The translations under genes and the position numbers were made by a program. The notes beneath the pieces were generated by a model. The model was not told the origin of the DNA. It searched no databases and saw nothing but the letters and a program-made list of their open reading frames with translations. This document shows positions 20,057 through 60,982 of a DNA stretch of 64,000 nucleotides, piece after piece. Origin of the DNA: Chrysogorgia sp. JL179-B06 (Eukaryota > Cnidaria > Anthozoa > Scleralcyonacea > Chrysogorgiidae); contig JAYKKM010000380.1 in NCBI GenBank assembly GCA_035772405.1, positions 640,359-704,358 of the forward strand, read 5' to 3'. Each line of letters begins with the position of its first letter. The stretch's first letter is position 1.

Positions 20057-20955
20057 ATGGCTCATCATTTAGAAAAGCTGAAACATAACAGGCAACATAG
20101 CATAAATTTACCAAGTCATAAAAAAACTCATACAGGAGAAAAGCCTTTCAAGTGTGATGTTTGTGAGAAAGCATTTAACTGGTCAACTAACTTACAAGCA
20201 CATAAAAGAACTCATACAGGAGAAAAGCCTTTCAAATGTGATGTTTGTGACAAAGCAATTTCCCAGCCAAGTAGCTTAATGTATCATAAGAGAACTCATA
20301 CAGGAGAAAAGCCTTTCAAATGTGATGTTTGCGACAAAGCATTTTCCCAGCTGGCAAGTAGCTTAATGTACCATAAGATAAATCATAGAGGAGAAAAGCC
20401 TTTCAAGTGTGATCTTTGTGACAAAGCATTTTCCCAGCCAAGTGGCTTAATATACCATAAGAGAACTCATACAGGAGAAAAGCCTTTCAAGTGTGATGTT
20501 TGTGACAAAGCATTTTCCTCGTCAAGTAGCTTACTATACCATAAGAGAACTCATACAGGAGAAAAGCCTTTCGAGTGTGATGTCTGTGACAAAGCATTTT
20601 CCTGGTCAAGTCACTTACTACGACATAAAAGAACTCACACTGAAGAAAAGTCTCTTAAATACGAAGTCTGCAACAAGGATTTCACAAGGTTAAGTCATCT
20701 GAAACATCATTCAAAAACACAACACATGAAAAAAATAAAGGAAAAACTCATAAAGTGGAGCTTGAATGCAAGGAATGTGGCACAAAGTTTTCTTCATCTC
20801 AAAAATTTGACCTGCATCAGATAGACCATGAGCTGGAAGCAATAGAACCAACTGGGATAAATTATGTATGTTTCAAATGTAGTGCAAGATTTGACTTTTT
20901 AAAAGAGCTGCTTGATCATGCACATAAAGATCATATAAATAAAATCACTGAGTAG
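20057..20955 (+). pseudogene. C2H2 zinc-finger gene, copy B, one late frameshift
   Basis: Starts at MAHHLEKLKHNRQHSINL (20057, with AACATGG context). Six standard fingers follow (residues about 40-205), joined by TGEKPF linkers. The third has an extra residue (SQLASSLMYH). A seventh, degenerate finger has lost its first Cys (KYEVC). In the A run near 20728-20734 one A is missing compared with copies A and C, so the frame leaves the family sequence and stops at 20824. The true tail, with CKECGTKF...HQIDH and CFKCSARF...HAHKDH, is open in the next frame to 20955. A truncated protein with all the main fingers could still be made. Likely a sequence-specific nuclear DNA-binding protein. Confidence 0.85.
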
Positions 20956-21470: not shown

Positions 21471-22296
21471 TTGTTGTTGGTTAGGGTTATGATCTAAGTT
21501 GTTTTGGGGTTTGTGATTATTTGCATGGTTAAGTAGCGTTATGGTTATGCTAAAAAACATCGTCCCAAAGACGCTGCACGTTTACATAGGAAAACCGCTG
21601 AAATTCGGAACGCGGGCGCCGTACAAACCAACATTGCGAATATGAAATTTAATGTTGCGAATTTGAAGTTTAAAGGTCAACTATACCTTTTAAGGTTCTA
21701 TTTTGCTCCGAAAGATATATCATCTAACTTTGTATAAGTGAAGAAAAAAATGAATTTCATGATATAGCGCAGGATTTATTGAGGAGTATTTCTTCGGATC
21801 TCTTTTTGCACGACCGCATTTTGAGAAGAATGGCACTTGTAGGTATGCTGATAATAGGTTTATTGAACAAAATAATATTCCAGTGCTTGATATTTGGTTT
21901 GTCACTTTTCAGTTACCCAAGAGTAAACAGTATTCCAAACTTCACTAAAATAAAACCAAAATATACAGTATTTATTCGTCGTATGACATCATCATGACAT
22001 CACATACCGGTAGTACCATGCTTTCTTCCGACGCGGTTGTTGTTTAACTAAGTTTAGCAAAAGGGCTGAAAACTCGATCTTTAACAGATCATAAAAGCAT
22101 TCAATTATTTCTTCGGTTTTTAATTGAACTTTTCGAATTCTAACGAAAAATAGAACCTCAAAAGGTATAGTTAGGCCATGGTAATTTAATAAAGTTTTTA
22201 TCTTGTGCTTTCAATCTCGTGTCCAGACCCTATGCGTTTTGGGTCTGGGAAGAGACTGATCTCTCTGGTGTCACAAAAACAAAAATTTCAAAAGGG
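21471..22296. other. Duplicon spacer, no gene seen
   Basis: Matches 40026-40770 closely (for example AACGCGGGCGCCGTACAAAC). The last 130 bp before 22297 are outside the shared part. Confidence 0.55.
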
Positions 22297-22300
22297 TTGT

Positions 22301-22726
22301 CTACGGTGGCCCATATCGGCAACACAAATATATATATTTAATAACACCGAAATATGTTTAATACATCCTAAATATATCTAAATTACAGATATATTTTCAG
22401 TACACAGATATATTTTCAGTACACAGATATATATTTTGAGTACAGATATATTTTCAGTACACAGATATATATTTTCAGTACACAGATATATATTTTCAGT
22501 ACACAGATATATTTTCAGTACAGATATATTTTCAGTACACAGATATATTTTCAGTACAGATATATATTTTCAGTACACAGATATATTTTCAGTACACAGA
22601 TATATTTTCAGTACAGATATATTTTCAGTACACAGATATATTTTCAGTACAGATATATTTTCAGTACACAGATATATTTTCAGTACAGATATATTTTCAG
22701 TACACAGATATATTTTCAGCACACAG
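22301..22726 (+). repeat. Left terminal inverted repeat with satellite
   Basis: 87 bp of unique TIR, then about 17 units of 17-21 bp built on ACAGATATATTTTCAGTAC up to 22726. A long frame reading through the array (MSTDIFSVHRYIF...) is a by-product of the repeat. Confidence 0.92.
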
Positions 22727-22786
22727 TTATGAGTATTACCCAGACTCCTTTGTAAAACTCGGTCACACTCACAGGTGATATCCAAC

Positions 22787-23956
22787 ATGGCCACCAGCTC
22801 CATAGAATCTGAATCAGACGAAGATGAACGAAGTTTGATAGAATATTATTTTTCTAGAGGATTTCAGTATAAAAGCATTGTCAATTTTTTGTCTAAACGG
22901 CACAGTATCAACATTTCTGAACGAACGCTACGAAGTCGTTTGAAGGAATACGGTCTCCAAAGGAGATCACCCGACTTCGATGTCAATTAGATACGTCGAA
23001 TAATACAAGAGAAGTTAAACGGCCCAGGTAGTATGGGGGGATACCGTTCGATGTGGCACGCTCTTAGAACGGAGGGATGTCAAGTTCCAAGGCGTATCGT
23101 TGAACAGTTGATGAGAGAACTCGATCCAGAAGGTTGTGAAGTCAGGCGTGGTAAACGTTTGCGTAGAAGAACCTACAGAGTACCAGGCCCCAATTTTTGC
23201 TGGCATACTGACGGCTACGATAAGCTAAAGCCATACGGCTTTCCCATACATGGCTGTGTTGATGGGTGGAGTCGAAAAATTATATGGCTGTGTGTGGCGA
23301 GGTCCAATAATAAACCCGAGATCCCTGCATCGTTTTACCTACAAAGTGTCGAGACATATGGCTGTCCAGTGAAGTTACGTAGCGACTGTGGCACTGAGAA
23401 TGGCATCATGGCCGCAATGCAATGCGAGTTGCGATCAAGTGCAAATGCTCATTTTTATGGCACATCGCCAGCTAATCAGAGGATCGAATCCTGGTGGTCT
23501 CACTTCAGGAAAAACAGGTCTACGTGGTGGATTAACTACTTTAAGGATCTGTGTGAAAAGAATATCTTCAATCCAGATAATGAGCTTGAAAGAGAGTGCC
23601 TTTGGATCTGCTTTTCGGATGTCATTCAAAACGACCTTGACTTTGTAAAGGAGCAGTGGAATACGCATCGAATCAGGGATTCCAAACACGACACAATTCC
23701 CGGCATACCTGACGAGTTGTACTATTTTCCAGAGAACAAAGGGGGTGTAGAGGATTTAGGTCTTGCAATCCCCACTGAACAAATCCAGTTTGTAAATGAA
23801 AATCTTTTACAATTCGATGGGGAAGATGAAGAAAATGTAATGCAGGAGTATTTCAACTATATTTTGGAAAACAGTGAACTTCAACAACCAAAGAATTGGC
23901 AAGAAGCTGAACAATTGTATTTCACTGTCATGGCAATAGCTAATGGCACGGAATGA
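22787..23956 (+). CDS. Integrase-core DDE transposase, one in-frame stop
   Basis: Would cut and join the ends of the surrounding element. The start chosen is MATSSIESESDEDERSLIEY (22787, CAACATGG context). Residues about 15-65 form a helix-turn-helix-like region (NISERTLRSRLKEYGLQRRS). TAG at 22988-22990 then interrupts, but the frame does not change and continues IRRIIQEKLNGPGSMGGYRS. The catalytic core follows: FCWHTDGYDKLKPYG (first Asp), VDGWSRKIIWL, LRSDCGTENG (second Asp) and ANQRIESWW (Glu), giving a D-D-E triad. The C-terminus is acidic and ends ANGTE. Length is about 389 residues, and no intron is needed. One nonsense codon may mean a young dead copy, an error, or a recoded stop. Confidence 0.88.
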
Positions 23957-25633
23957 CTTAAATGGTAGCATTGGCTGTTTTTTCTAATAATTACTCATTA
24001 ATACTATACTTGTTAATGTCAGGTGACATATTTTTTGTTGGTACTTTTTCCTACAATACCAAACTATTCTGTACATTAAGTTAAATGATAACTATAAATA
24101 CGTATCCGCAGTAATCCCTCGCCCACCTGTTCATTGTCATCCTACCGTCCGCGGGATTTTCCCCATCACTGGTCCCAGATCTCGTACGCCGTGTATTTGT
24201 AGATCACACTGCAAAAGACTGTTACGTCGTGGACATTTTTGAACGTTATCTCGGCCAATATTTAACCGATACGTTTGTATTATATTATGAGAACGTGCAT
24301 ACCCTTCGTAAGAACCTGTTATGTATTTGAACGTTATCTCGGTCGATATTCAACCGTTTTCAATTCTGAAAACATTTGGAATTACCTAGTCCAAGTACAT
24401 GCAAACCCTTCGTAAAAACCTGTATACCAACTTTTGGTGAGAAATTGATCCCTGCCGCGGTGATATTCTCGCGGATAGTGTCCCCCGCAGAAAGTGTCCC
24501 CCCGGACATTATCCGCCAGCAGATACCCCCCCCCCCCCGACACTATTCGCCGCGGATTCTGTCACCTAGAAATTTGGACTAATAATAAACCGTCAAATTG
24601 AGAAACTGATATTTTTAATTTCATTGTTCAAACAAAATATCGCAAAACGATATTATATAGATGGTGAGGTTTTTTGTTCGTTTCATGACATGATTTTATG
24701 AGTGGACTGCGGACTCTTTGCTATATTGCGTTTGCTTATGAGTTAGTGTCTGGTAATGGAAGAAACAAACATTTTTGAAATCGAACTGTTTTGCCATTGT
24801 CTCATGCCCGAAATGTGCGATGACTCCGCCAGCATTCTGAACAATCTGTATTTTTAAACTATATTTTGAACCATTATTTTTAGTTCTTCTCTTTTTGGTT
24901 TTATTAATTACGAAAATACGGATGTACTGTCATCTAAATACCGGTAATACCAGTAGTTGACTGTTGATATCATGAATTTTTCTGTATCCCTTTACACCAA
25001 AAAATGACAAGCAAGACATGGTCACAAAATCAAAATGTGAGAAAAGCTTTTATGTAAAGTGAACATGCAACTTTACTCACACTACCGTATACCAGTATGT
25101 TTTATAGAATTATCAGTATAAAATTAATCTTTATCATTTATAGACCCGGAACAAAGGGAATTCGACGAAATATTACCCCGAGGGACATATCATCCCGAGG
25201 GGTAATATTTCGACGAATTCCCCGAGCGGAGGATCTATATATTATACCGATAAGCTATATTATCATCGGGTGGGGTCTGCACGCAGGATAGAAACGTCTA
25301 GATTATTCGTGATTAGCGGGTGTATTCGTGATCAGCGGGTGATTCGAGTTTAAATTGACTGGTCACATGGTACAAATCTAGCTCTCTGATTGGACAATTT
25401 ATAGTTGAGGTATAATATTGTGAGAAATTAAACAGGATTCCCATGATATTTTTATTGTAACTTCAATTGTTAACAAGTATACCCAAAATAAAGTTGTTGA
25501 ACAACTGTACAATTTGAACGTGAAACAATGTCTACTTTACAGTAGTTCTACTCTGCCAACTATCTGTGGCATTTAAGTGTACAGTAAACAGTACCTCTTT
25601 AACATGAACACAAGATTTATGTTCTATAGATGT
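23957..25633. other. Space between the two convergent genes of the TIR element
   Basis: No gene. It has a GTGTCCCCC-rich patch with a run of Cs near 24528-24538, and a palindrome at 25156. It probably holds both 3' untranslated regions. Confidence 0.5.
25156..25226. repeat. 30-bp-arm palindrome
   Basis: GGGAATTCGACGAAATATTA at about 25158 is matched by an inverse copy ending about 25226, with CATATCA in the loop. One or two mismatches. MITE-like or a hairpin relic. Confidence 0.75.
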
Positions 25634-28600
25634 TCAGTTAAGCAAGATTTCTGGTGAGCTTATTATTCCAGTGATCATTTTTTCCTTCAACTCATTGAAA
25701 TCATGGTAATTAGCAATAGGCAACACAATGGTAGGACCACATGTTCTTGCTTGAGGTAACTTTGACTCACATGTTGGTGGTGTTTCTCTCTGATCTAATT
25801 CTATAAACATTATCATTGGAGAGCTATTTACTCCCCAGCCAACCACTGGTTCTTCCTCAGCACCACTTGCAAAGCGCAGTATGTCTTTCGGCATGACTGT
25901 GGAATCTGACTCTATGACAATAATATAAAAATTTAATATATCATTATAGAGAACTGATTACAGTACCTATACAAATATATATATATATATAAATATATAT
26001 ATATATAATTAATATTAGAGAGGATTTAATATTGTCGAATACATATATGGATAAAGTGACTGCCCCAACCGGGAATCGAACCCCGGTCTCCGAATCAACG
26101 TTTCAGCGCTCTAACCTTTGAGCTAAATTACTGACTGTTTTAATCACCGACTAGCTGTTCTGACCGTGTTTCATTAGTTCAAAGGTTAGAGCGCCGAAAC
26201 GTTGATTCAGAGACCAGGGTTCGATTCCCGGTTGGGGCAGTCACTTTTTCCATATATGTATATATACAGTAAAGTGAAACTACTTTTTTATGTAAGTATA
26301 TGTTATCACATGAGGGGTGAGGTGATATCAGTTTTATCGCTTGAGGGACGATATCGTAATTGTCACGAGTGAGCGTAGCGAACAAGGGACAATTATGATA
26401 TCACCGAGTCACGAATATGATAACCTATTTATCACATACTTGTAATTAGAATAAGCAATCAACAATAAGTACTAAAAATAGACATATTGTTTTTCAGCGG
26501 GACATATCGTTTTTCAGCGGGACATATCGTTTTTATCACCCGCTGTTATCACCCTGATAAAGGCACAAGTATGTGATAAATATATATATATATAACCAAG
26601 TTGTCACAAGCAATATGCCCAAACGTTAAAACAAAAATTAGAAGTCTTAATTGTTATATTCCAAAGTTTAGCAAAAGATTGATGTAAAAAATATGAGAAT
26701 ATATGACATATGTATATATGCATGTATGAATATAATTATGCACATACTGTATGCACACAGATATGACTTACATTTAAACCATTAATTATTTTCCCTAGGA
26801 TAATGCAATTATTCTTACCAACATGAACATTATAATTTTGATTAAGGCCCCTGAGATTGAGGCCTCTATACAGAAGTTAACATACTATATTATGATATAT
26901 ATATATTTATACAATAACCTGTTTACTACGCACATTCTCATTGGTTGTTGCCCATGATCTATTAGAGGACAGATGTACGGATCACGTCAGCTCACGCCAT
27001 ATCACGCCATATCACGCCATATCACGTCAGCCGACTGCTTTTATCTTTTTTCATGCCCCAGAAATTGCCAAAGAGCTAATAAGCCTTTTGAATGGTTTGT
27101 TTTCAATTTTTATTGTATAAAACAAATAGATTCCATTTTGCCGTTGTCTGTTCAGTTACAGATGCACAGAGGACGTCAGAACATGGTAAGAACATCAGTG
27201 ACCCACTCGACTATCGTCTCGTGGGCCACTTTTTTGTTCTTACCACGTTCTGACGTCATCTATGCATGCATCTATAACTGAACAGACAACGGCAAAATGG
27301 AATCTATTTGTTAAATATATACACTGTATATATATGGTATTTAATCTAACAATTAGTACTGATCAGTTCTGACCTGAAGTGCTTCTGACAAAAGACATCC
27401 ACAATTCATACATATCTTCTTCTTTCTCTCTTCTGTTGGTTCCAATTTCACTGAACTGTGGCAGAAAGGTTTTGATGATGTAGTCAGTAGAAACATCTTT
27501 GTGCAGACCATGTACAAACACAGAGCGGAATGTTGAAGCATTCAACTGAATTAACTCCAAGAGTTTATAATGAGCCAAGCCTTCGCAGAAGTCTTCCAGT
27601 TCATTCCTAAATAAGGACATATAATTTATATTGAGATTTGAATGACAAAGGGCATGCAGGTGGCCAGAATAAATGTCCAATACAGGCATCTGTTGTTGCA
27701 TGTGTGGGATGGTGGGTACAAATAACTCAAATTCCTTCTTATTTCATTGACTGCAGCTTTACCATAACACTAAATTGTTACAAGGTGTAATAATGATTAG
27801 ATTCAGAGAATGCCTGTCACCTCCACATACCTTGCATGTTCCATTATTGGTAACCTTTGTATGTATATAATTAACCAATTAAGGGGCATGCACCCCACTC
27901 TGATGAATAAAATCATTGGGTGTTAGTCAGAATAAAATGCTAAAGTGCACCCTTGCCCCTTAATGATTAATAAAAAGTAACCTCATTTAAAATGTGATTG
28001 TAATGACTATTTGGTACTGTACCTGCATTTACCAATCACCAAATACTTAATCACATTATCCACAATAGATTTGACATCTTTCAATTTGAATGACAAGTTC
28101 TGGTAACCTGCTTCAAGCATAAGCTCAGTAACTGCTTCTTCCTGAATTACCTTGGAAAGGACCAATTGATTATCAATTTCCAGAAGCTAAAAGAAAATAA
28201 ATTTTACTTGGTGGATACAATGCTGCACAATAACATTGTACTTTGTAAATATAATCTTGTTTGTTTGATAGCTTTAAATCAGCCCACTAAAACTTGGCAA
28301 CTACATGCACCAGTTTGCAAATGAACCATTTTGAGTAACTGGACAATAAAGCCATCTAATGCACATATTACATTCAAATGTTGTAAATAAATATCATTCT
28401 ACATGATACATCTGTGCCAAAATATACACACATTGTTGTATACATGTAAATTAGTAAATACCACAAATTAGTGATATAATATTTAGGTATAATGCTACAG
28501 TATATCATTATTGTGTGTATTATAGTTCCAGAAATCTCCAGATAATTTCATTTACCCTAACCTTGGAAGGCACTAGAAATTCTCTGGGAAGGAGGGGATC

Positions 28601-31600
28601 GATTTAACATCAAAATTTCCAAACAAGCTTTCAAGTGCTGTAGCAAACTGTTTGTACAATAGAAAAATGTTCAAGCTCTTAAAGTAAATGTTTGACTTTT
28701 TCAGAGCTTGTAGTAAACCGTCCCATTGCTTGAAGTAAATTGTTTGTGTACTTGAAGTAAACTGTGTGAGTGAAATTAAACACTTGTAACGAACCATTTG
28801 AGCACTTGAAGTGAACTGTTTGAGGACGTAATTAACAGAAAAAATAATGACAGACACTGTATTGTGCATACAGTACAAACCTTTTCAAGAATGTCTCTAT
28901 GTTGGGCATAAGGGACTTCATTTAAAGATGGATTTGTCCTATCGTACCCAATAGTGATATAATTGTACATGGATGGTGAAAGGATAGATGGTGGATCCCC
29001 TCCAAAGGTTAATGAAACTGCAAATGCTCTTCCTGCCATATAGTATTCGTGACTATTCAGCTTATTGGCATTGTGTGTCAATACATATGCTCCCACATTG
29101 GCTGTTTGCTGAAAAATACCTGAGCATTCCACAATATTATTCCTCAGTAACCTTAGAAAATCACGCCGTGGCCCTTTGTCATCGACAGTCATCATGCTGT
29201 CAGTGAATTTCACCTATCAACAAAATGTTCAATTACTATCATAGCTGTAGTGAGGTTAATTAACATTTCCATTGAATGTCTACATAACTACATTTAAATC
29301 TCGGATTATTATAGCCTGTGCTTAAAACCTTAGCTGTGACTATATTTCAAAAATTATATTTGAAATCATAGCCACTAAATGGTACTGACTACAATTGTAT
29401 AATGGCTGTCCATTCCACGTGTTTCAATTTCATTTATCACAAATTTCTGCATTAAAAGTCATTACTCAGTAATGGTACCGTAAACATCTGAAAATAAGCC
29501 TGCAGGGCCCCCCAAAACAGGCCCACCCTGAATATAAAGCCCCCATCAAATCTCATATGCAAAAATCCTTCTGTTAATAATTAGCTTGCCAAATATACCA
29601 TAAGTCCATGAGCCTATAATAATATAATGAAAGTGAAAAGGTGGAAACTACCAAGAATTTAGTGACGAGATACTGACGTTTCAAGCGGAGCCCTTCATCA
29701 GAGTAAGACGAGATGAAATAAAATAAATAGGGCTTATATATATATGCCAAAAGGGTGTCACAAGTAGAAAGTAGCCAATCAAATGCACGGGAGATAAACA
29801 AACTAATAATTAATGAGATGGGAAAAGTTAAATCATTTGCTATTTTTACAGTCGATCAATAAGCAGACTGAGGGGTGGGAGAAATGACAGGTCCAATATT
29901 CAAAGGGATTAGGCGATAATAATAGCAGAAAAAAACAAAAACTTGAAAAGGAATGAAAGTGCATAAGCTAATAATAAAAAGTTCCAAGCAAACTAAAATA
30001 ACAAAAAACTTGTAGGAAATTAAATAAAAACGTTCGTTAAGACCAAGAGGATGTGTGGTGCCAAGTTTAAAAATGAGACGCTTCTCTTGCCGCTTGATGG
30101 ACGTCAAGTCCTTATACACCGTCATTCCCCATTGTGATGGCCTTGAAGCTCTGAAGTTTTTCTTTGATCAGCGCACTCATTTAGAACCCTCCACAACCAC
30201 GTTACTTCGCTTAGCAGAACTAGTGCTTAATTTTTCGTTTGATGGTGAACATTATCAACAAATAAGTGGTGTTGCGATGGGCACCAAAATGGGTCCAACT
30301 TCCAAGCTATGCTAACTTATTTGTTGGTTATGTTGAAAAACAGATCTTTGAACGATATCCCTTCCTGATTTCTTCGGCAGATTTCTCGATGACTGTTTAG
30401 GAACAGCGTCGTGTTCACGTGTCTTTTTAGAGCAGTTCATCAACTTTGTTGATGATTTTCATCCTGCTCTGAAGTTCACATGGGAAATCAATGAGACCTC
30501 TGTGTCGTTCCTTGATATTTTAATTTCGATTAATGGTGATTCGCTGAGAACGTCGGTCTCGTACAAGCCTACTGACTCCCATAGTTATCTTCTATTTTCA
30601 TCCTCTCATCCCAACCACACTAAGCAATCTATCCCTTACTCTCAATTCTTGCGTCTTCGCCGCTTATGTAGTGACGACCAAGATTTTCAAGCCAAATCAA
30701 TGGAAATGAGATATTTTTTTGTTCAACGTGGTTACCCTACCAACATTCTAGACCTTGCCGTTCAGAAAGCTTTTCTCGTCCCCCGTTTAGACGCCCTTGA
30801 ACCATCTTTGGAACAAGTTTCAAACAATAAAATTCCTTTAGTTCTAACATTTCATCCTTTCAATTTTAAAGTTAAAAATATTATCAATCGGAATTTTCAA
30901 ATTTTACAAAATGATCCTGAGACGTCAGCCATTTTCACCGATAACCCTTTGGTATCTTTTCGCCGTAATAAAAACATTCGTGACTCCTTAGCACCAGCGG
31001 GAACCTTTTCTTGCGGCCGTTCCCGCTGCAACACATGCCCTTTTCTCAATCCCACTACAGTTATTATTGCCCCCAAATTCGACCACACTATCCGTCATAC
31101 TTTTTCATGCACGTCCACCAACACAATTTATTGCATTTCTTGTGATAAATGCCCTAAAATCTACATCGGTGAAACTGGGTGACGCCTTTCAGACAGGTTT
31201 GCTGAACATCTTCGTTCCGTGAGGATCAATGATGGTGACAAACCTGTAGCCCGCCATTTCAACAGCTCCAACAATTTGGCTTCAGACATGAAAGTCTGTG
31301 CCATCCTTCCCATTTCCGGTGGCAACGATAATCGCAAGCGGCAAGAGAAGCGTCTCATTTTTAAACTTAGCACCACACATCCTCTTGGTCTTAACGAACG
31401 TTTTTCTTTTATTTAATTTCCTAAACGTTTTTTGTTATTTTAGTTTGCTTGGAACTTTTTATTATTAGCTTATGCACTTTCATTCCTTTTCAAGTCTTTG
31501 TTTCTATTATTATCACCTAATCCCCTTGAATATTGGACCTGTCATTTCTCCCACCCCCTCAGTCTGCTTATTGATCGACTGTAAAAATAGCAAATGATTT

Positions 31601-34150
31601 AACTTTTCCCATCTCATTAATTATTAGTTTGTTTATCTCCCATGCATTTGATTGGCTACTTTCTACTTGTGACACCCTTTTGGCATATATATAAGCCCTA
31701 TTTATTTTATTTCATCTCGTCTTACTCTGATGAAGGGCTCCGCTCGAAACGTCAGTATCTCGTCACTAAATTCTTGGCAGTTTACCACCTTTTCACTTTG
31801 CTATATATTCAAAACACTGTCTACGCAGCACTCTACTTTTTTACTATAATAATATAATATACAGTATAATTAATATAACGATTAATAATAAAGACCACTG
31901 CAAATATAAGCCCACTAAAAGTTCACAGTGATTGGAGACATTAGGAGGAAGGAAATTTAATATAAGGAAAGGAATACTACAAGCTTGTTGCAAAATAGAG
32001 TTGACTGTTCCAATTTGGCATACAGGTACCTCAAAATCCATCGTATCATCTACCAATTGCTCTGTCATCTCCCTTAGAAAGCTTTTCCACGGTTTTGATC
32101 TTCTGATGACTAACACAACAGACTTAGTAAATGATATAGCTGAGCTAATATGTTGCTGTAATAATGTAGATGCAGATACCACATCATCACACAAAGAAAC
32201 ATCCCTATCAAATAGACAAGTAAAATATCAAGCCATAAAGGGGTGAGCATAATTTACAAATCTCTTGTTATGATAATCACCACAAAATAACCAGATGTTA
32301 CTGTTAGAATAACCAAACATGTACTGTACCTCATGTTTAATTGCTTTGAAATAACTAGTTCATCCTCACTGTCAGTTTCAATCAATGACCATGGGTCACT
32401 AAAGAGAAACAATTAAAATTATTACACATGTAGTACTGTAGTATCATGAATACTCTACACATGTCACTTAGGGCACTTTAATTGCCCTGTTTCTCTCTCC
32501 TGTTGGCATTTTGTACTTATTTGTTGTATATATTTACTTTTTATTATTACTGTGAGAAACATATTAAATTCAAATTATTGAAATTAAGTTATTCTTTGAT
32601 AAATAAGGACTTAAAATTTAAATGAAACAACAATTGAGTAAAATCACAACTGGCTTGCAAGATTTGAAAAATTACTTATGTTTATACTGTACACTACATG
32701 ATTAAATGCTTCTATAATTTTACCATAAAAATAAAATAATAAGTAAACTGTTAATTGTGGCAAAATAATCTACCAATATTCGTATGGAGAAATATTATAC
32801 AGTAAAACACAAAATTTACAACCACCTGCTTTGTAGTTAAAATGTACTACCTGAAATGAGTGCATGACTACAACAATATATATAACAGTAACTGCCATTT
32901 TATGACACAGGAATAGCCATAAAACTTAGGTTCTACTGTATAATACATTTTCCAAAATTAAATGCAATTGAGTATGTGGTGTTTTTTATAACTGCATATA
33001 GTACATATTAGACAAGCAGGGTAAAACCTTTTAGTGAATTATTTTTATGCACAGCATATAGAACTTACAGAGTGTCTTTAATATCTGTCTTTGATTCCGA
33101 GGTAAGGGTTTCTTTAAAATTACTACCTAATGTCAACAGTAAAACATAATTTTTCACTTAGTTACATAACACAATTAATAAACTTTATTATAGTAAAATT
33201 AAATTATTAGCCCATAATTTAATATGCAAGATATTATGATTGTTATTTTTCATAATTAACCTGAGGTGGGTCAGAGGTTGCTTACAAATATGTGATTTGT
33301 GTTTAAATGATATAATAACATTTCATTTAAAGATAATTCAGTCATTTTGCCCCACACCCCCCCCCCCCCCCCCCTCCACCCCCCCCTCGTGAAATTTGGG
33401 GGCCTGTATACTTTTAAACAGTGCCAAATAAGAAACTTTACTCACAGGTTCCACTATTTTGTGTGGATGAAGATTTCCCCAACCATGTGACTGGCGGTAG
33501 TTCTTCCATTTCGTCTCCACTACTAATGTTCACTGTTTCCCCTCTTGCTTCGACATCGGCGGGTAAAATATATAAACTTATTCGAGAATATCCGAACCCA
33601 GAAACTTCCTTATACCTCTGTAAGGTAAACGGCTCTTGAGGATCAGTACCTGGAATAACTTCAACCTTGCTGCCATCTTTGAACACTAACAAATAGTTAA
33701 TTGCATCATCAAATCGCTTGTTGAAATCAGCATGCTTCTTTATAGCCGCTACAAGGATCGCCTGTGGTATGGCAGAAGTAGTAACTTTTAACGGAATTGT
33801 TTCCCCACGTTTTACGTTTAAGTTGTCTTCCATAACTCCGACTTGAATAGTAACTTCCTTTTCTTGAATTTTCCTTTTTTTGTTAATACTGGTACTCTTT
33901 TTAGAAAAAGAACTTTGTCGTTCTGTTTCTTTCTTGATTTTAAAAGCGGCATAGCTTGGCAGCGAGAATCTGTTACCACTGCTAGTGCTGCTACTGGAGG
34001 GTTTTGCAGTTTGAACCACATTACTATCGTTGCCAATAGCATTATTACTTATCTCGTTGCCGCACTTTGGACAACAAAAAAAAAGCTTTGTTCCAAACAA
34101 AGCCCACAATTGGAGCAGAACTTTGAGCCTGGCTGATTTGGACTCGCCAT
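25634..34150 (-). CDS. HECT-type E3 ubiquitin ligase, eight inferred exons
   Basis: Would pass ubiquitin from an E2 enzyme through a catalytic Cys to target proteins. Exons inferred from GT-AG sites and phase: 34150-33446, 33084-33069 (16-bp microexon), 32398-32330, 32204-32030, 29213-28881, 28196-28023, 27606-27374 and 25911-25634. Joins read in frame, e.g. DDTMDFE|VKFTDSMM, RDILEK|LLEIDNQ, GKCR|NELEDFC and RSTS-E-SDSTVMPKD. The N-terminus has a zinc-ribbon-like FCSNCG...FCCPKCGNE, then a Ser-rich linker and a basic KKSTSINKKRKIQEKE stretch. The HECT N-lobe begins VKFTDSMMTVDDKGPRRDFL. The C-lobe has DILRFASGAEEEPVVG and the active-site region QARTCGPTIVLPIANYHDF (Cys in RTC). A one-base change in the T/A run near 34075-34083 shifts the first exon. 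The microexon is the least certain part. Confidence 0.8.
26044..26258. repeat. Palindrome made of two inverted tRNA-like sequences
   Basis: A tRNA-like sequence on the minus strand (about 26135-26066) and another on the plus strand (about 26172-26241) face each other. Each has a T-arm box GGTTCGATTCCCGG and an arm CCGAAACGTTGATTCGG (or one-base variants) whose loop would give anticodon GTT. The match extends outward to GACTGCCCCAACCGG and its complement. The acceptor stems do not pair, so these are tRNA-derived SINE or foldback arms, not working tRNA genes. A single copy is at 37385. It lies in the last HECT intron. Confidence 0.75.
26425..26585. mobile_element. Short MITE-like unit
   Basis: ATTTATCACATACTTGT at about 26428 is repeated inversely at about 26566-26582. 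Inside, CAGCGGGACATATCGTTTTT occurs twice in tandem. It lies within the last HECT intron. Confidence 0.5.
27119..27316. mobile_element. Palindromic MITE with arms of about 80 bp
   Basis: ACAAATAGATTCCATTTTGC at 27120 and its exact inverse ending about 27311 bound a 198-bp palindrome. The inner arms contain GACGTCAGAACATGGTAAGA and its near complement. It lies in the last HECT intron, 57 bp from the exon that ends at 27374. Confidence 0.85.
30104..31416 (+). pseudogene. Penelope-like reverse transcriptase with GIY-YIG endonuclease
   Basis: Copies element RNA into DNA at a nick made by its own endonuclease. The RT part begins inside motif A (DVKSLYTVIPHCDGLEAL), then ISGVAMGTKMGPT (motif B). 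After a frame change near 30310-30390 it has FFGRFLDDCLG (motif C, FLDD) and SFLDILISINGDSL. The linker has CGRSRCNTCPFLN, a Cys motif. The GIY-YIG domain reads NTIYCISCDKCPKIYIGETG, a TGA stop at 31180-31182 where an Arg codon CGA is expected, then RLSDRFAEHLRSVR and ARHF. The end is LGLNERFSFI. The N-terminal part is missing. Confidence 0.85.
31724..31760 (+). ncRNA. Hammerhead-ribozyme-like motif in the Penelope tail
   Basis: The strand reads CTGATGA, then A-GGGC-TCC-GCTC (a 4-bp stem), then GAAAC, then GTCAGTA. That is the order of hammerhead core boxes with a very short stem III, as reported for Penelope-like elements. An extra A after CTGATGA and lack of an evident stem I make activity doubtful. 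An inverse copy is at about 29690-29722. Confidence 0.45.
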
Positions 34151-34217
34151 CTTGAAAGTCGAACGCGCGGGAATTAGCAACCTCGTACCCAGGGTCTCAT
34201 CTGGGGGAATTAGCTGT

Positions 34218-34752
34218 GTACTGAATATATATCTGTGTACTGAAAATATATATCCGTGTACTGAAAATATATATCTGTGTACTGAAAATATATCTGTGTA
34301 CTGAAAATATATCTGTGTACTGAAAATATATCTGTGTACTGAAAATATATCTGTGTACTGAAAATATATCTGTGTACTGAAAATATATATCCGTGTTCTG
34401 AAAATATATCTGTGTGCTGAAAATATATCTGTGTACTGAAAATATATATCTGTGTACTGAAAATATATCTGTGTACTGAAAATATATCTGTGTACTGAAA
34501 ATATATCTGTGTACTGAAAATATATCTGTGTACTGAAAATATATATCCGTGTTCTGAAAATATATCTGTGTACTGAAAATATATATCTGTGTACTGAAAA
34601 TATATCTGTGTACTGAAAATATATCTGTGTACTGAAAATATATCTGTGTACTGAAAATATATCTGTGTAATTTAGATATATTTAGGATGTATTAAACATA
34701 TTTCGGTGTTATTAAATATATATATTTGTGTTGCCGATATGGGCCACCGTAG
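34218..34752 (-). repeat. Right terminal inverted repeat with satellite
   Basis: About 24 units of 17-21 bp (CTGTGTACTGAAAATATAT) from 34218 to 34665, then the 87-bp unique TIR to 34752. It is the inverse of 22301-22726 but has more units, so the two arrays expanded separately. Variants with CCGTGTTCTG recur at two spaced places (about 34391 and 34547). Confidence 0.92.
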
Positions 34753-34756
34753 TTGT

Positions 34757-36744
34757 CAGTTCGTTTGCCGGGAGAATTCTATGGCTGACCGGTGAAGCCG
34801 GGAGACTTGAAATGCATGAAAAACCAAATAGACGATGGCTGGGCAAATTTCGTCAGATCTATTGCCAAATCATGCGTGTTGTTACAACAGTACGAGCATT
34901 ATTCGTGTTTATATATCTCTTTGGAGACAAAGCAAAAGATGAAGGACTTGTTGCAGCGTTAATGAACTTATTGCAATTCAAGACCTAGCATCCTCCGCAG
35001 GCAACTCTGTGGCTTCTTTTTCCTGAGTCAAATAGCTTCCAAGGCTGTTTTGGAAGCGTCCGAGGAATTTTTTTTCGGGATTTATCTCTTACTTATTTAT
35101 CGAGCCGTGAAGCGGCGAGGTAAATATAACGATAATCACCGAGACTGAAGCGACAAATTGTTTTCAGGCTTGAACTGAATATTCAATTGGGAAGTTTTAA
35201 ACAGACAGTTTGAATTGTGTTAGATTTAATTTGTAAATCCAATAGTCGATGTTTTCACGTTTGACAGCTTTCAAAAACACACTAACGATCAAAACCGACG
35301 TAAAAATACAAATAATTATACGATAAACAACTTCCTTACCCTTAGACAGTTCTATCTTGAGAGAAACCTGATCTATACAATGTCTTTATTTTAAGTTTTT
35401 AACCCTTCTCGACGATTTTTTTAATAAATAATATAGTCGCCATTTTGAAAAATCCTTATTTTTTTAGAAACTATACATCAATAGCAAAAAATGACAGTAC
35501 TCATATTTAGTACAATTTAAACGTCTCCAAACAATTATGCTTTGCGTAGACAGTTACTTCGGTAAAATCTCTCGCAATGCTGATGAGATGAATGTTGCTG
35601 CAAGATTTGTAAATTGCAATTATTGTATTACAGCTTGATTTACTCACAAGCACATTTTTAGCCCGTCGGCACTATAGCCCCCATGTTAATTTCGCCGGCC
35701 TTGATATCGTTGCCGTGAACCATAGAGTAATGCTTTTCATTGTGTGGTATCATGAAGAGAAAACACATTTAAAATTAAGATAAACTAAACACTCGGTTGT
35801 AATACTACATGCAATCTCTTGTATTACTTCTACTCAGCGTCTCCTGGAGTATGTGATTTGACCATAATGTGCTACTCCGCTGTGATATCGCAGACTCAGC
35901 CTGTTTGAGAAGAGCGATTCCGAAGAAACCTGAAGAAACGCGTGGAAGAATAATAATAGTGTCATTCTGTTGTTCAATCCTTTCTTGTTCTGGTTCAAAA
36001 AGAGGTAAATAGCTATTACAGGATATTTTAAACGTTTGTTGATATGGCTGGTAGTGTTCTAGTTAAACCTGATTGCTGCTGATCGAATAATTTTAGCTTC
36101 AGAAGCTGTTTGGTGAAAAATTATAGTTCTGAACTACAGCACAATCCTGCAAAATATTATTGAGACAATGTCCAACTTAATAAACAAATTTCTCGTCCCC
36201 TGTTTATAAGGTGATTCTTTTCCCACTTCAATGTTACAGTTTGCAAAAGAAACATATTCTTTTAGATGTTCATTCAAGTTGAATGATTCAATATTGTATT
36301 GGGGGAATCCTGAAGGGGAATATTGTACTAGTACTAGCATGTGCAAATTATAGATTATGGGGGGAAAGATGACCTTGAACTTATATCTACTATACGTGTA
36401 TCTATCTCCTATATTTATGCATTGAAGAACCAGCAAATATAGCAGTGAGAGCAAAGAAACAAAACAATTAGAGTTGTGAAATGTGATAGTTTGTTTACAG
36501 TTGTGGTGCACTGTAAAAAACCCAGGCCCTTGAGAAGTGTTGCAATACTTGATATATTATATAAGCGTATGGAATTAGATCCAGGCCCTCGAGTCTATAA
36601 AAGGTCACAACATCAAGTTCAAGCGGCCATTTTATTTTGAACATATATATCATATATTTGGAGACTGGAGTATTAGAACTATAATTATATTAGTATTGTG
36701 TATGTGTATATAATGTGTATATGTGTATGTATATATACATATAT
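34757..36744. other. Duplicon B spacer, continued right of the TIR element
   Basis: Matches 41370-43330 closely and, in part, 3150-3330 and 8892-9700. It includes the empty DIRS site at 35998-36030 and CCTCCGCAGGCAACTCTGTG at about 34991. No gene supported. Confidence 0.6.
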
Positions 36745-38467: not shown

Positions 38468-39532
38468 ATGGCCAATCATTTAAAAAAGTTGAAACATAAC
38501 AGGCAACATAGCATCAAGTTACCAAGTCATAAAAGAACTAGTACAGGAGAAAAGCCTTTCAAGTGTGATGTCTGTAGCAAAGCATTTTCCTGCTCAGGTA
38601 ACTTACAAACACATAAAAGTACTCATACAAGAGAAAAGCCTTTCAAGTGTGATGTCTGTAACAAAGCATTTTCCTGCTCAGGTAACTTACAAACACATAA
38701 AAGAACTCATACAGGAGAAAGGCCTTTCAAGTGTGATGTTTGTGACAAAGCATTTTGCTCGTCAAGTGGCTTAATATACCATAAGAAAACTCATACAGGA
38801 GAAAAGCCTTTCAAGTGTGATGTTTGTGAGAAAGCATTTCCCTCATTAAGTGGCTTGATATACCATAAGAAAACTCATACAGGAGAAAAGGCTTTCAAGT
38901 GTGATGTTTGTGACAAAGCATTTTCGCAGTCAAGTGGCTTAATATACCATAAGAGAACTCATACAGGAGAAAAGCCTTTCGAGTGTGATGTTTGTGACAA
39001 ATCATTTTCCCAATCAAATAACTTACAAAGACATAAAAGAACCCATACAGGAAAAAGGCCTTTCAAGTGTGATGTTTGTGACAAAGCATTTTCCTCGCCA
39101 AGTGGTTTAATATACCATAATGGAACTCATACAGGAGAAAAGCCTTTCAAGTGTGATGTTTGTGACAAAGCATTTTCCTGGTCAAGTCACTTACTACGAC
39201 ATAAAAGAACTCGCACTAAAGAAAACTCTCTTAAATACGAAGTCTGCAACAAGGATTTCACAAGGTTCAGTCATCTGAAACATCATTCAAAAACACAACC
39301 CATGAAAAGAAATAAAGGAAAAACTCATAAAGTGGAGTTTGAATGCAAGGAATGTGGCACAAAGTTTTCTTCATCTCAAAAATGTGACGTGCATCAGATA
39401 GACCATGAGCTGGAAGCAATAAAACCAACTGGGATAAATTATGTGTGTTTCAAATGTAGTGCAAGATTTGACTTTTTAAAAGAGCTGCTTGATCATGTAC
39501 ATAAAGATCATATAAATAAAATCACTGAGTAG
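38468..39532 (+). CDS. C2H2 zinc-finger protein, intact copy C
   Basis: A 354-residue open frame, taken from MANHLKKLKHNRQHSIKL at 38468 (AACATGG context, same place as in copies B and D) rather than the in-frame ATG at 38441. Eight standard C2H2 fingers occupy about residues 33-250 with TGEKPF-type linkers. The eighth ends in R instead of H (HKRTR). A ninth, degenerate finger lacks its first Cys (KYEVCNKDF). After a basic linker ([12 protein letters not shown]) come two divergent fingers, CKECGTKF...HQIDH and CFKCSARF...HVHKDH. Expected to be a nuclear, sequence-specific DNA-binding protein. It is the only undamaged member of four here, and finger number and contact residues differ among copies. 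No KRAB, SCAN or BTB domain is visible. Confidence 0.9.
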   Translation: MANHLKKLKHNRQHSIKLPSHKRTSTGEKPFKCDVCSKAFSCSGNLQTHKSTHTREKPFKCDVCNKAFSCSGNLQTHKRTHTGERPFKCDVCDKAFCSSSGLIYHKKTHTGEKPFKCDVCEKAFPSLSGLIYHKKTHTGEKAFKCDVCDKAFSQSSGLIYHKRTHTGEKPFECDVCDKSFSQSNNLQRHKRTHTGKRPFKCDVCDKAFSSPSGLIYHNGTHTGEKPFKCDVCDKAFSWSSHLLRHKRTRTKENSLKYEVCNKDFTRFSHLKHHSKTQPMKRNKGKTHKVEFECKECGTKFSSSQKCDVHQIDHELEAIKPTGINYVCFKCSARFDFLKELLDHVHKDHINKITE

Positions 39533-59757: not shown

Positions 59758-60982
59758 ATGGCCAATCATTTAAAAAAAGTTGGAAACATAACAGGCAACA
59801 TAGCATCAAGTTACCAAGTATAAAAGAACTAGGTACAGGAGAGAAAGCCTTTCAAGTGTGTGAGGATTGTGAGAAAGCATTTACCCACGCATGTTACTTA
59901 CAAATAATAAAAAGAACATCATACAGGAGAAAAGCCTTTCAAGTTTGTCGATGATCTGTATACAAAGCATTTTCTGCTCAGGTAACTTACAAATACATAA
60001 AGAACTACATCACAGGAGAAAAGCCATTCAAAGTGTGATGTTTGTGACAAGCATTTTCCCGCATCAAGTGGCTTAATATACCATAAGAAAAAAACATCAT
60101 ACAGGAGAAAAGCTTTCTCATAAGTGTGATGTTTTGTGACAAAGCCATTTTCTCAATCAGGTTGGCTTAATATACCATAAGGTGTACTCATAGAGGAGGA
60201 ATAGCCTTTCAAGTAGTGATGTCTTGTAACCAAAAGCATTTTCGCATCATGTGGCTTAATATACCATAGAGAGAAATCATACAGCGAGAAAAACCTTTCA
60301 AGTGTGATGTTTGTGACAAAGCATTTTTCCCAGGCAAGTGGCTCTTAATACTTCCCATAAGAGAAACTCATACAGGAGAAAAGGCATTTCAAGTGTGATG
60401 TTCTGTGACAAAGCATTTTCATCGCCAAGTGGTTTAATACCACCATAGTAAGGGGAACTCCAATACAGGGAGAAAAGCCTTTCATTGTTTTAGTGTGGAT
60501 TTTTTTTTTGTGACAAAGCATTTTCCTCGCCAAGTGGTTTATATATACCATAAGGGAAACGGGTCATTCGACGGGAGAATTCAAGTGTGATGTCTGTGAC
60601 CAAAAACATTTTCTGGTCAATTAAACTTAACTACGACATAAAATAACTCACACTGACGAAAAAGTCTCTTAAATACGGAAGTCGTGACAACAAGGCTTTC
60701 ACAAGGTTCAGTCCTCTGAAACATCATTCAAAAAACACAACACAAGAACAATAATTAAGGAACAACTCATACAGTGGAGCTTGAATGCAAGGAATGTTTG
60801 CACAAAGTTTTTCTTCATTCTCAAAAATTTGACCTTGCATCAGATAGACCATGAGCTGGAAGCAATCGAACCAACTGGATATAAATTCTGTATGTTTTCA
60901 ATGTAGTGGCAAAATATTAACTTTTTAAAAGAGCTGCTTTGATCATGTACATACAGATCATATTAATAAAAACACTGAGTAG
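59758..60982 (+). pseudogene. C2H2 zinc-finger gene, copy D, many indels
   Basis: Same leader and start (MANHLKK) as copy C, and the same end (ACTGAGTAG at about 60974-60982). About ten finger units are recognisable by TGTGATGTTTGTGACAAAGC, but nearly every unit has one or more single-base insertions or deletions, mainly extra bases, so no frame lasts more than about 70 codons. It is either an old pseudogene or a good gene seen through error-rich sequence. Confidence 0.85.

Follow-up and report, generated by a model that had tools for sequence, protein, structure and literature searches.

A DNA transposon family of Chrysogorgia with a transposase gene and a second gene for a predicted HECT ubiquitin ligase

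The element and its two genes

The 64,000-nucleotide stretch of Chrysogorgia sp. JL179-B06 analysed here (contig JAYKKM010000380.1, called the window in the following) contains a transposon of 12,450 bp at 22302-34751, which begins TACGGTGGCCCA and finishes TGGGCCACCGTA. Comparison of its ends revealed terminal inverted repeats (TIRs) of 86 bp, at 22302..22387 on the plus and 34666..34751 on the minus strand, which match perfectly (TACGG...CCGTA). Just internal to both of them sit satellites of 19-bp units, for which tandem repeat analysis gave about 18 copies on the left (22385..22730, plus strand) and about 23 copies on the right (34214..34669, minus strand). The hexamer GTTGTC lies directly outside both ends, at 22296..22301 and 34752..34757, as the target site duplication. 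A preliminary description of this DNA had given matching ends of 87 bp with TTGT on both outer sides, and both the inverted ends and the duplication proved to be real, but the 87th pair (C/G) belongs to the duplication, of which TTGT is merely the core. As the flanking C and G are part of the duplication, the earlier limits were one base out on each side. A 4-bp duplication TTGT was ruled out by other copies and by the empty sites, which both point to a length of 6 bp.

These empty sites, for which a search had been proposed in the same description, were found by joining the two flanks of the window element and using them as query against its own genome. In C239, C49 and C348 related repeats run through the site, read GGGTTGTCAGTTCG and hold GTTGTC only once, with short insertions left of the site in comparison to the joined-flank query; a repeat in C218 spans the insertion site too but diverges left of it. 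The sites in C239, C49 and C348 are paralogous empty sites within a repeat, not alleles. Of the 16 examined copies with TIRs, 14 have exact 6-bp duplications at their flanks (10 of 11 in the first set, and also C34, C54, C375 and C21), the two misses being C266 and C267, and two entries in this tally, C307 and C472, appear to represent a single site present on two contigs. All 11 pairs of ends start with TA and finish with TA (TACGG..CCGTA, with one base changed in one C307/C472 end), and arrays of ~20-bp units are located internal to both ends in family F1, to which the window element belongs, as well as in families F2, F3 and F5.

C307 and C472 (L019/L020) hold one short TIR element with identical 12-bp flanks in reverse orientation on the two contigs, so that both haplotypes are probably retained in parts of the assembly. 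At C112:77097-79811 (G000) the subterminal units of the element match many times over, with overlaps, along about 2.7 kb, which may be a satellite that arose from a transposon end, and in C368 (L024, 521-1197) four successive left TIR ends, each starting TACGGTGGCCCATAA, suggest a tandem insertion or a duplication of ends. The window itself also contains four tandem arrays of 84-89-bp zinc-finger-like repeats (1-503, 20117-20650, 38528-39212 and 59834-60484), each followed within ~1.2 kb by satellite arrays of the ATTCGCAACATTAAACTTCAT type with units of 21-22 bp.

The transposase gene (22787..23956, plus strand) encodes an rve-type DDE enzyme with D-57-D-33-E spacing that matches the Pfam family rva_4 (PF24764, 1.3e-37), in agreement with the integrase-type DDE transposase that had been noted at one end. 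Upstream of the DDE core no retroviral HHCC motif was seen by eye in the transposases examined; this part shows weak matches to HTH-like models or, in some elements, a CxxC...CxxC ribbon. A domain search found no RING family in the transposases of F1, F2 and P0061, and a scan of viral contigs gave no match to the transposase. IS3EU elements have TA..TA termini, usually 6-bp duplications and an rve-type DDE transposase that like its relatives is devoid of the retroviral HHCC (PMC10045372), and the fungal TET+ IS3EU elements end TAYGG..CCRTA (PMC12730594). The window element has the TA..TA termini, the 6-bp duplication and the rve-type DDE without HHCC in common with IS3EU/GingerRoot as described there (PMC10045372), and its TACGG..CCGTA matches the fungal termini (PMC12730594). 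The earlier suggestion to compare IS3EU-type families was well placed, as termini, duplication and transposase all agree, and the element fits the IS3EU/GingerRoot superfamily, a membership judged by structure and not by descent. Membership in IS481EU, for which TNT/TGT..ACA-type termini and duplications of ~4, 15 or 25 bp have been described (PMC10045372), was ruled out by the TACGG..CCGTA termini and the 6 bp of the window element.

The opposite end is occupied by a spliced gene for a predicted HECT E3 ligase (25634..34150, minus strand), which starts with an ATG at 34150, runs to about 25634 and converges on the transposase gene. In this still incomplete splice model, with all exons on the minus strand, exon 1 (33446..34150, its 3' end set at the splice site as we read it) encodes a zinc ribbon and a predicted ubiquitin-like domain and is followed by two probable internal exons with ends set by eye, a small one at 32330..32398 and another at 31981..32204. 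Two N-lobe exons (28883..29213 and 28012..28186) and a further exon (27371..27617) have approximate ends, and the last exon with the C-lobe lies at 25634..25913. This last exon alone matches the Pfam HECT domain (PF00632) with 25.1 bits (1.7e-5) against a cut-off of 23.9, four concatenated exons reach 3.4e-8, and the codon for the catalytic cysteine is found at 25739-25741 within LPQARTCGPTIVLP. With minus-strand exons and a HECT match above the cut-off, the spliced ligase described earlier for this end was confirmed, as was the inward reading of both genes from the satellite ends. At 26056-26245 two inverted tRNA-like copies (GGTTCGATTCCCGG box, by eye) lie close together; ARAGORN calls no tRNA in this interval.

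Scores against the Pfam HECT profile are only moderate overall (28-44 bits), with 33.9, 37 and 39.7 bits for F1, F2 and F3 and 28.3 bits for the relative P0001 at the same cut-off. In copy C194 (7.1 kb) of the sister family F2 five exons of the gene can be joined to encode 668 residues, with a HECT match that covers profile positions 21-305 of 306 and an N-terminus in which a CxxC...CxxC ribbon is accompanied by a C2HC-like motif. Between ribbon and C2HC-like motif a ubiquitin-like fold was predicted on P0001 (residues 87-190), with middling structural matches (Z 8-9) and from a model that is poor overall (mean pLDDT 59, pTM 0.27) including its HECT part; the best Foldseek match of P0001 is the HECT domain of HUWE1, and its C-lobe cysteine motif aligns with that of AREL1. 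The catalytic cysteine is present in all nine elements whose sequence reaches the region, in six of six database relatives and in C180. We conclude that the second gene of the element encodes a predicted HECT-type ubiquitin ligase. A database search with the HECT region returned only eight proteins, which are cnidarian and of the same kind where the source names the organism, the named ones coming from Montipora, Desmophyllum, Dendronephthya and Oculina, and the annotated name of the relative P0154 begins 'G2 M phase-specific E3 ubiquit'. For P0013 (HECT) and P0061 (transposase) the longest contig is 168,259 in both cases, which hints that the two may be linked in another genome.

The window copy itself is probably dead, to judge from its reading frames. 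Its transposase has an in-frame TAG at 22988-22990 where the copy C275 has GAG (C275 carries a different transposase stop of its own), and the zinc-ribbon region of its HECT gene is out of frame relative to C275 and C2, which read through. As these two copies differ from the window copy by only ~1% in introns, family F1 has moved recently. The F2 copies differ by far less than 1% in HECT, with C148b, which is more decayed, as the exception (1.5-2.3%); the HECT genes of C148a and C148b are disrupted by indels or stops, both genes are open in C194, and open HECT frames of 680 and 760 residues are present in C107 and C226, respectively. A HECT intron of the window copy harbours a nested element (29737..31693) with 139-nt inverted arms that are 99% complementary and a broken reverse-transcriptase-like ORF ending in the GIY-YIG-like motif KCPKIYIGETG, which we take to be Penelope-like. 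Since it is also found in C275 and C2, it has travelled along with the transposon.

Recurrence and conservation of the gene pair

When the genome from which the window comes was searched, the HECT exon-1 protein gave 150 scored matches of 391 candidates, merged to 147 loci, the transposase gave 131 matches with 124 scored loci of 1728 candidates, and a second HECT type taken from C375 gave 94 matches with 75 scored of 1207. With both HECT searches merged, a HECT match lies no more than 8 kb away from 79 of the 124 scored transposase loci; in 78 cases the two converge and in one they do not, whereas about 0.12 convergent pairs would be expected by chance. The first HECT list alone gave 58 transposase loci with HECT within 8 kb, 57 of them convergent, among the matches listed, and all seven loci without partner in this first comparison (C375, C32, C107, C343, C156, C21 and C226) turned out to carry HECT downstream on the opposite strand when read. 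On the listed matches alone, roughly one transposase locus in two had seemed to be without HECT, an impression that was rejected on the basis of these seven. For 40 of the 124 transposase loci no HECT match was scored up to a distance of 15 kb; HECT is present in the four of them that were read, which leaves 36 without a scored partner.

On the side of the ligase, 82 of the 147 exon-1 loci are without a scored transposase within 30 kb among the matches listed, and six of them were read. C148c does have a transposase; none was found in ~15 kb around C2, which is an F1 copy with its right end only, in the 2.4 kb read at C402, in the 1.7 kb read at C180, or in the short TIR copies C54 and C267, where only remains of HECT exon 1 are left. 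The C180 locus (L033, 894-3266) holds an intronless HECT frame of 791 aa that starts within a TIR and is possibly a solo HECT element or a domesticated gene. Among the other short copies C438 and C307/C472 keep remains of both genes, and C34, which is rearranged, has transposase pieces only and no HECT. The convergent pair recurs in diverged families with 45-68% identity of the transposase and 17-53% identity of the HECT protein.

Further copies bounded by the TIR, which the preliminary description had proposed to look for, carry both genes in ten of ten cases above 5 kb. It had also named TIR copies lacking HECT, together with HECT genes lacking TIRs, as the pattern that would speak against the pairing; among the copies read, the only TIR copy with transposase but no HECT is C34, and C2, C180 and C402 hold HECT with no transposase in the stretches read. 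From these sequence comparisons we are practically certain that the element is a two-gene DNA transposon with a transposase and a predicted HECT ligase, and the HECT gene is the regular second gene of a large transposon family.

Selection on HECT was analysed with 17 pieces in 136 pairs, none of which was dropped; codons with a gap or stop were skipped and pairs above 45% identity were tabulated. The tabulated pairs between families are mostly saturated at synonymous sites (pS ~0.74-0.84) with a pN of 0.2-0.37. Four of the 136 pairs have a dS of 0.2-2, with a median dN/dS of 0.21 and a maximum of 0.31, but two of these four are not independent: C70-C375 has pS 0.69, pN 0.20 and dN/dS 0.12, and C75-C375 repeats it as C70 and C75 are near-identical. 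For close pairs dN/dS scatters between 0.10 and 2.23 on few changes, with C350-C263 above 1, and the values of 0.34-0.56 within families, also on few changes and with one F2 pair without any synonymous change, are weak because the copies differ by ~1-2%. At least one in-frame stop is found in 8 of the 17 pieces, which is expected of dead copies and limits the test. On this codon comparison, HECT has evolved under purifying selection between families and not by the neutral drift that had been named beforehand as the contrary outcome. In addition, the distances of transposase and HECT correlate among ten elements (r = 0.51, permutation p = 0.005), which is what joint inheritance of the two genes would produce. 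The initial idea of the ligase as a passenger kept because it helps the element thus holds as far as the keeping is concerned, with purifying selection in its favour, but a regular second gene is not an occasional passenger.

Possible role of the ligase

Of 12 elements scanned, 9 have a HECT protein whose start matches the pattern of a CxxC...CxxC zinc ribbon. On the transposase side the ribbon is clear in four (C226, C107, C32 and F3) and present as a variant in one (F2) of the nine checked, and it was not found at the transposase start in F1, C375, C343 and C21; C343 has a ribbon-like stretch upstream of the transposase on the same strand. In C226, whose outermost left end lies outside the DNA examined, the inverted repeat extends to ~599 bp from the right end and therefore beyond both start codons, so that transposase and HECT protein begin identically over 37 residues (MFCRSCGNELQETNVFCPTCGRQVDGRGPQAAAEEVS). 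On the HECT side of C107 a decayed copy of the transposase ribbon adjoins the ribbon of HECT itself. Ribbons in both proteins along with the ~20-bp subterminal arrays would be consistent with a common address at the ends.

For this two-gene IS3EU-like family we lean slightly towards a predicted HECT ligase that acts at the ends of the element, on the transposase-DNA complex or on proteins bound there. The zinc ribbon would recruit the ligase, with the subterminal repeats or the transposase as its docking place, and the HECT C-lobe would then ubiquitylate the transposase, leading to the turnover of a stable end complex by which transposition might be either limited or completed. Host proteins at the ends could be alternative targets, the transposase-end complex being the substrate that we rate most likely. 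As a mechanism, such ribbon-guided ubiquitylation is put forward tentatively, with not quite an even chance of being right, and the lack of a ribbon in the transposases of C375 and of F1, the family of the window element, speaks against it. Rather doubtful is a more specific version of it, according to which the inverted repeats encode a shared address tag that would direct ligase and transposase to the same arrays, where ubiquitin would unload or recycle the end complex. ClpX unloads the transposase of phage Mu, and with a shared tag the element would be a self-encoded eukaryotic counterpart by analogy.

TIR elements do capture fragments of host genes, and one copy might by chance have picked up a host HECT gene as a passenger. 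This is extremely improbable and was ruled out by the paired loci that were read, the genome-wide co-location and the purifying selection, together with the occurrence of the same convergent pair in diverged families; moreover, the eight proteins obtained with the HECT region are cnidarian and of the same kind as far as they are named. A different useful function would be an action in trans, in which the ligase tags a host repressor such as a chromatin or small-RNA factor for removal and need not meet the transposase at all. We regard this as a possible explanation that has the smaller part of the probability, and it draws by analogy on the fungal TET+ IS3EU elements, which carry TET/JBP, thought to counter DNA methylation, and an alpha-kinase (PMC12730594). 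Purifying selection fits any useful function, and the HECT loci C2, C180 and C402 without a transposase in the DNA read could be explained by it as well, but no host target is known, and a ribbon that occurs in both proteins of some elements, with the same sequence in C226, argues for a shared destination at the transposon ends instead.

The HECT protein could also do nothing but limit the copy number, by tagging free transposase for the proteasome and so sparing the host some damage, without acting at the ends. RAG1 as a domesticated transposase with its own RING ligase is a precedent (PMC4411706), and young copies with small divergence within families fit a tuned activity. Nevertheless we consider it unlikely, as a limiter gains a selfish element little unless its hosts are badly hurt, and as it leaves the shared protein start within the inverted repeats of C226 unexplained. 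If, as we prefer, the ligase works on the transposase-end complex, the element would provide a tractable two-protein system for the ubiquitin control of eukaryotic transpososomes. Some cnidarian genes annotated as E3 ligases, P0154 for example, may be transposon genes and not host expansions.

Comparison with known systems

Among the literature matches listed, with Repbase and subscription journals outside the scope, none describes a DNA transposon that carries a HECT gene, and the two papers with both 'HECT domain' and 'DNA transposon' concern other matters in their accessible parts. A DNA transposon with HECT as its regular second gene did not turn up in the literature searched, an unannounced Repbase entry being possible. 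With the HECT E3 ligases HUWE1, AREL1, RSP5 and E6AP the element protein has the Pfam HECT domain and the C-lobe cysteine in common, but it differs from them in its N-terminus with zinc ribbon, predicted ubiquitin-like domain and C2HC-like motif, in its low sequence similarity and in being transposon-borne. Mutator-like plant elements carry Ulp1-type proteases, often as captured copies, and like the window element they are TIR transposons with an enzyme of the ubiquitin pathway. However, Ulp1 is a protease that removes modifiers, whereas the window element has a predicted ligase as its regular second gene.

Closer in architecture are the TET+ IS3EU elements of rust fungi, in which an alpha-kinase gene lies opposite to the transposase inside the TIRs, in addition to TET/JBP (PMC12730594). 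They resemble the window element in having a second gene opposite the transposase within the TIRs (PMC12730594), but this second gene is an alpha-kinase (plus TET/JBP) in the fungi and a predicted ubiquitin ligase in the window element. The accessible parts of the IS3EU/GingerRoot descriptions do not mention a HECT gene (PMC10045372), the fungal TET+ members having TET/JBP and the alpha-kinase instead. RAG1, apparently the nearest recombinase with a ligase, is a DDE recombinase with ubiquitin ligase activity through its RING domain (PMC4411706), so that a DDE recombinase is linked to ubiquitin ligase activity in both systems, shown for RAG1 and predicted here. In RAG1/Chapaev the ligase is a RING within the transposase, whereas the HECT of the window element comes from a separate convergent gene. 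Ligase activity in a recombinase is already known from the RING of RAG1, and what the window element adds, within the literature searched, is a HECT ligase, predicted from sequence, as the second gene of a transposon.
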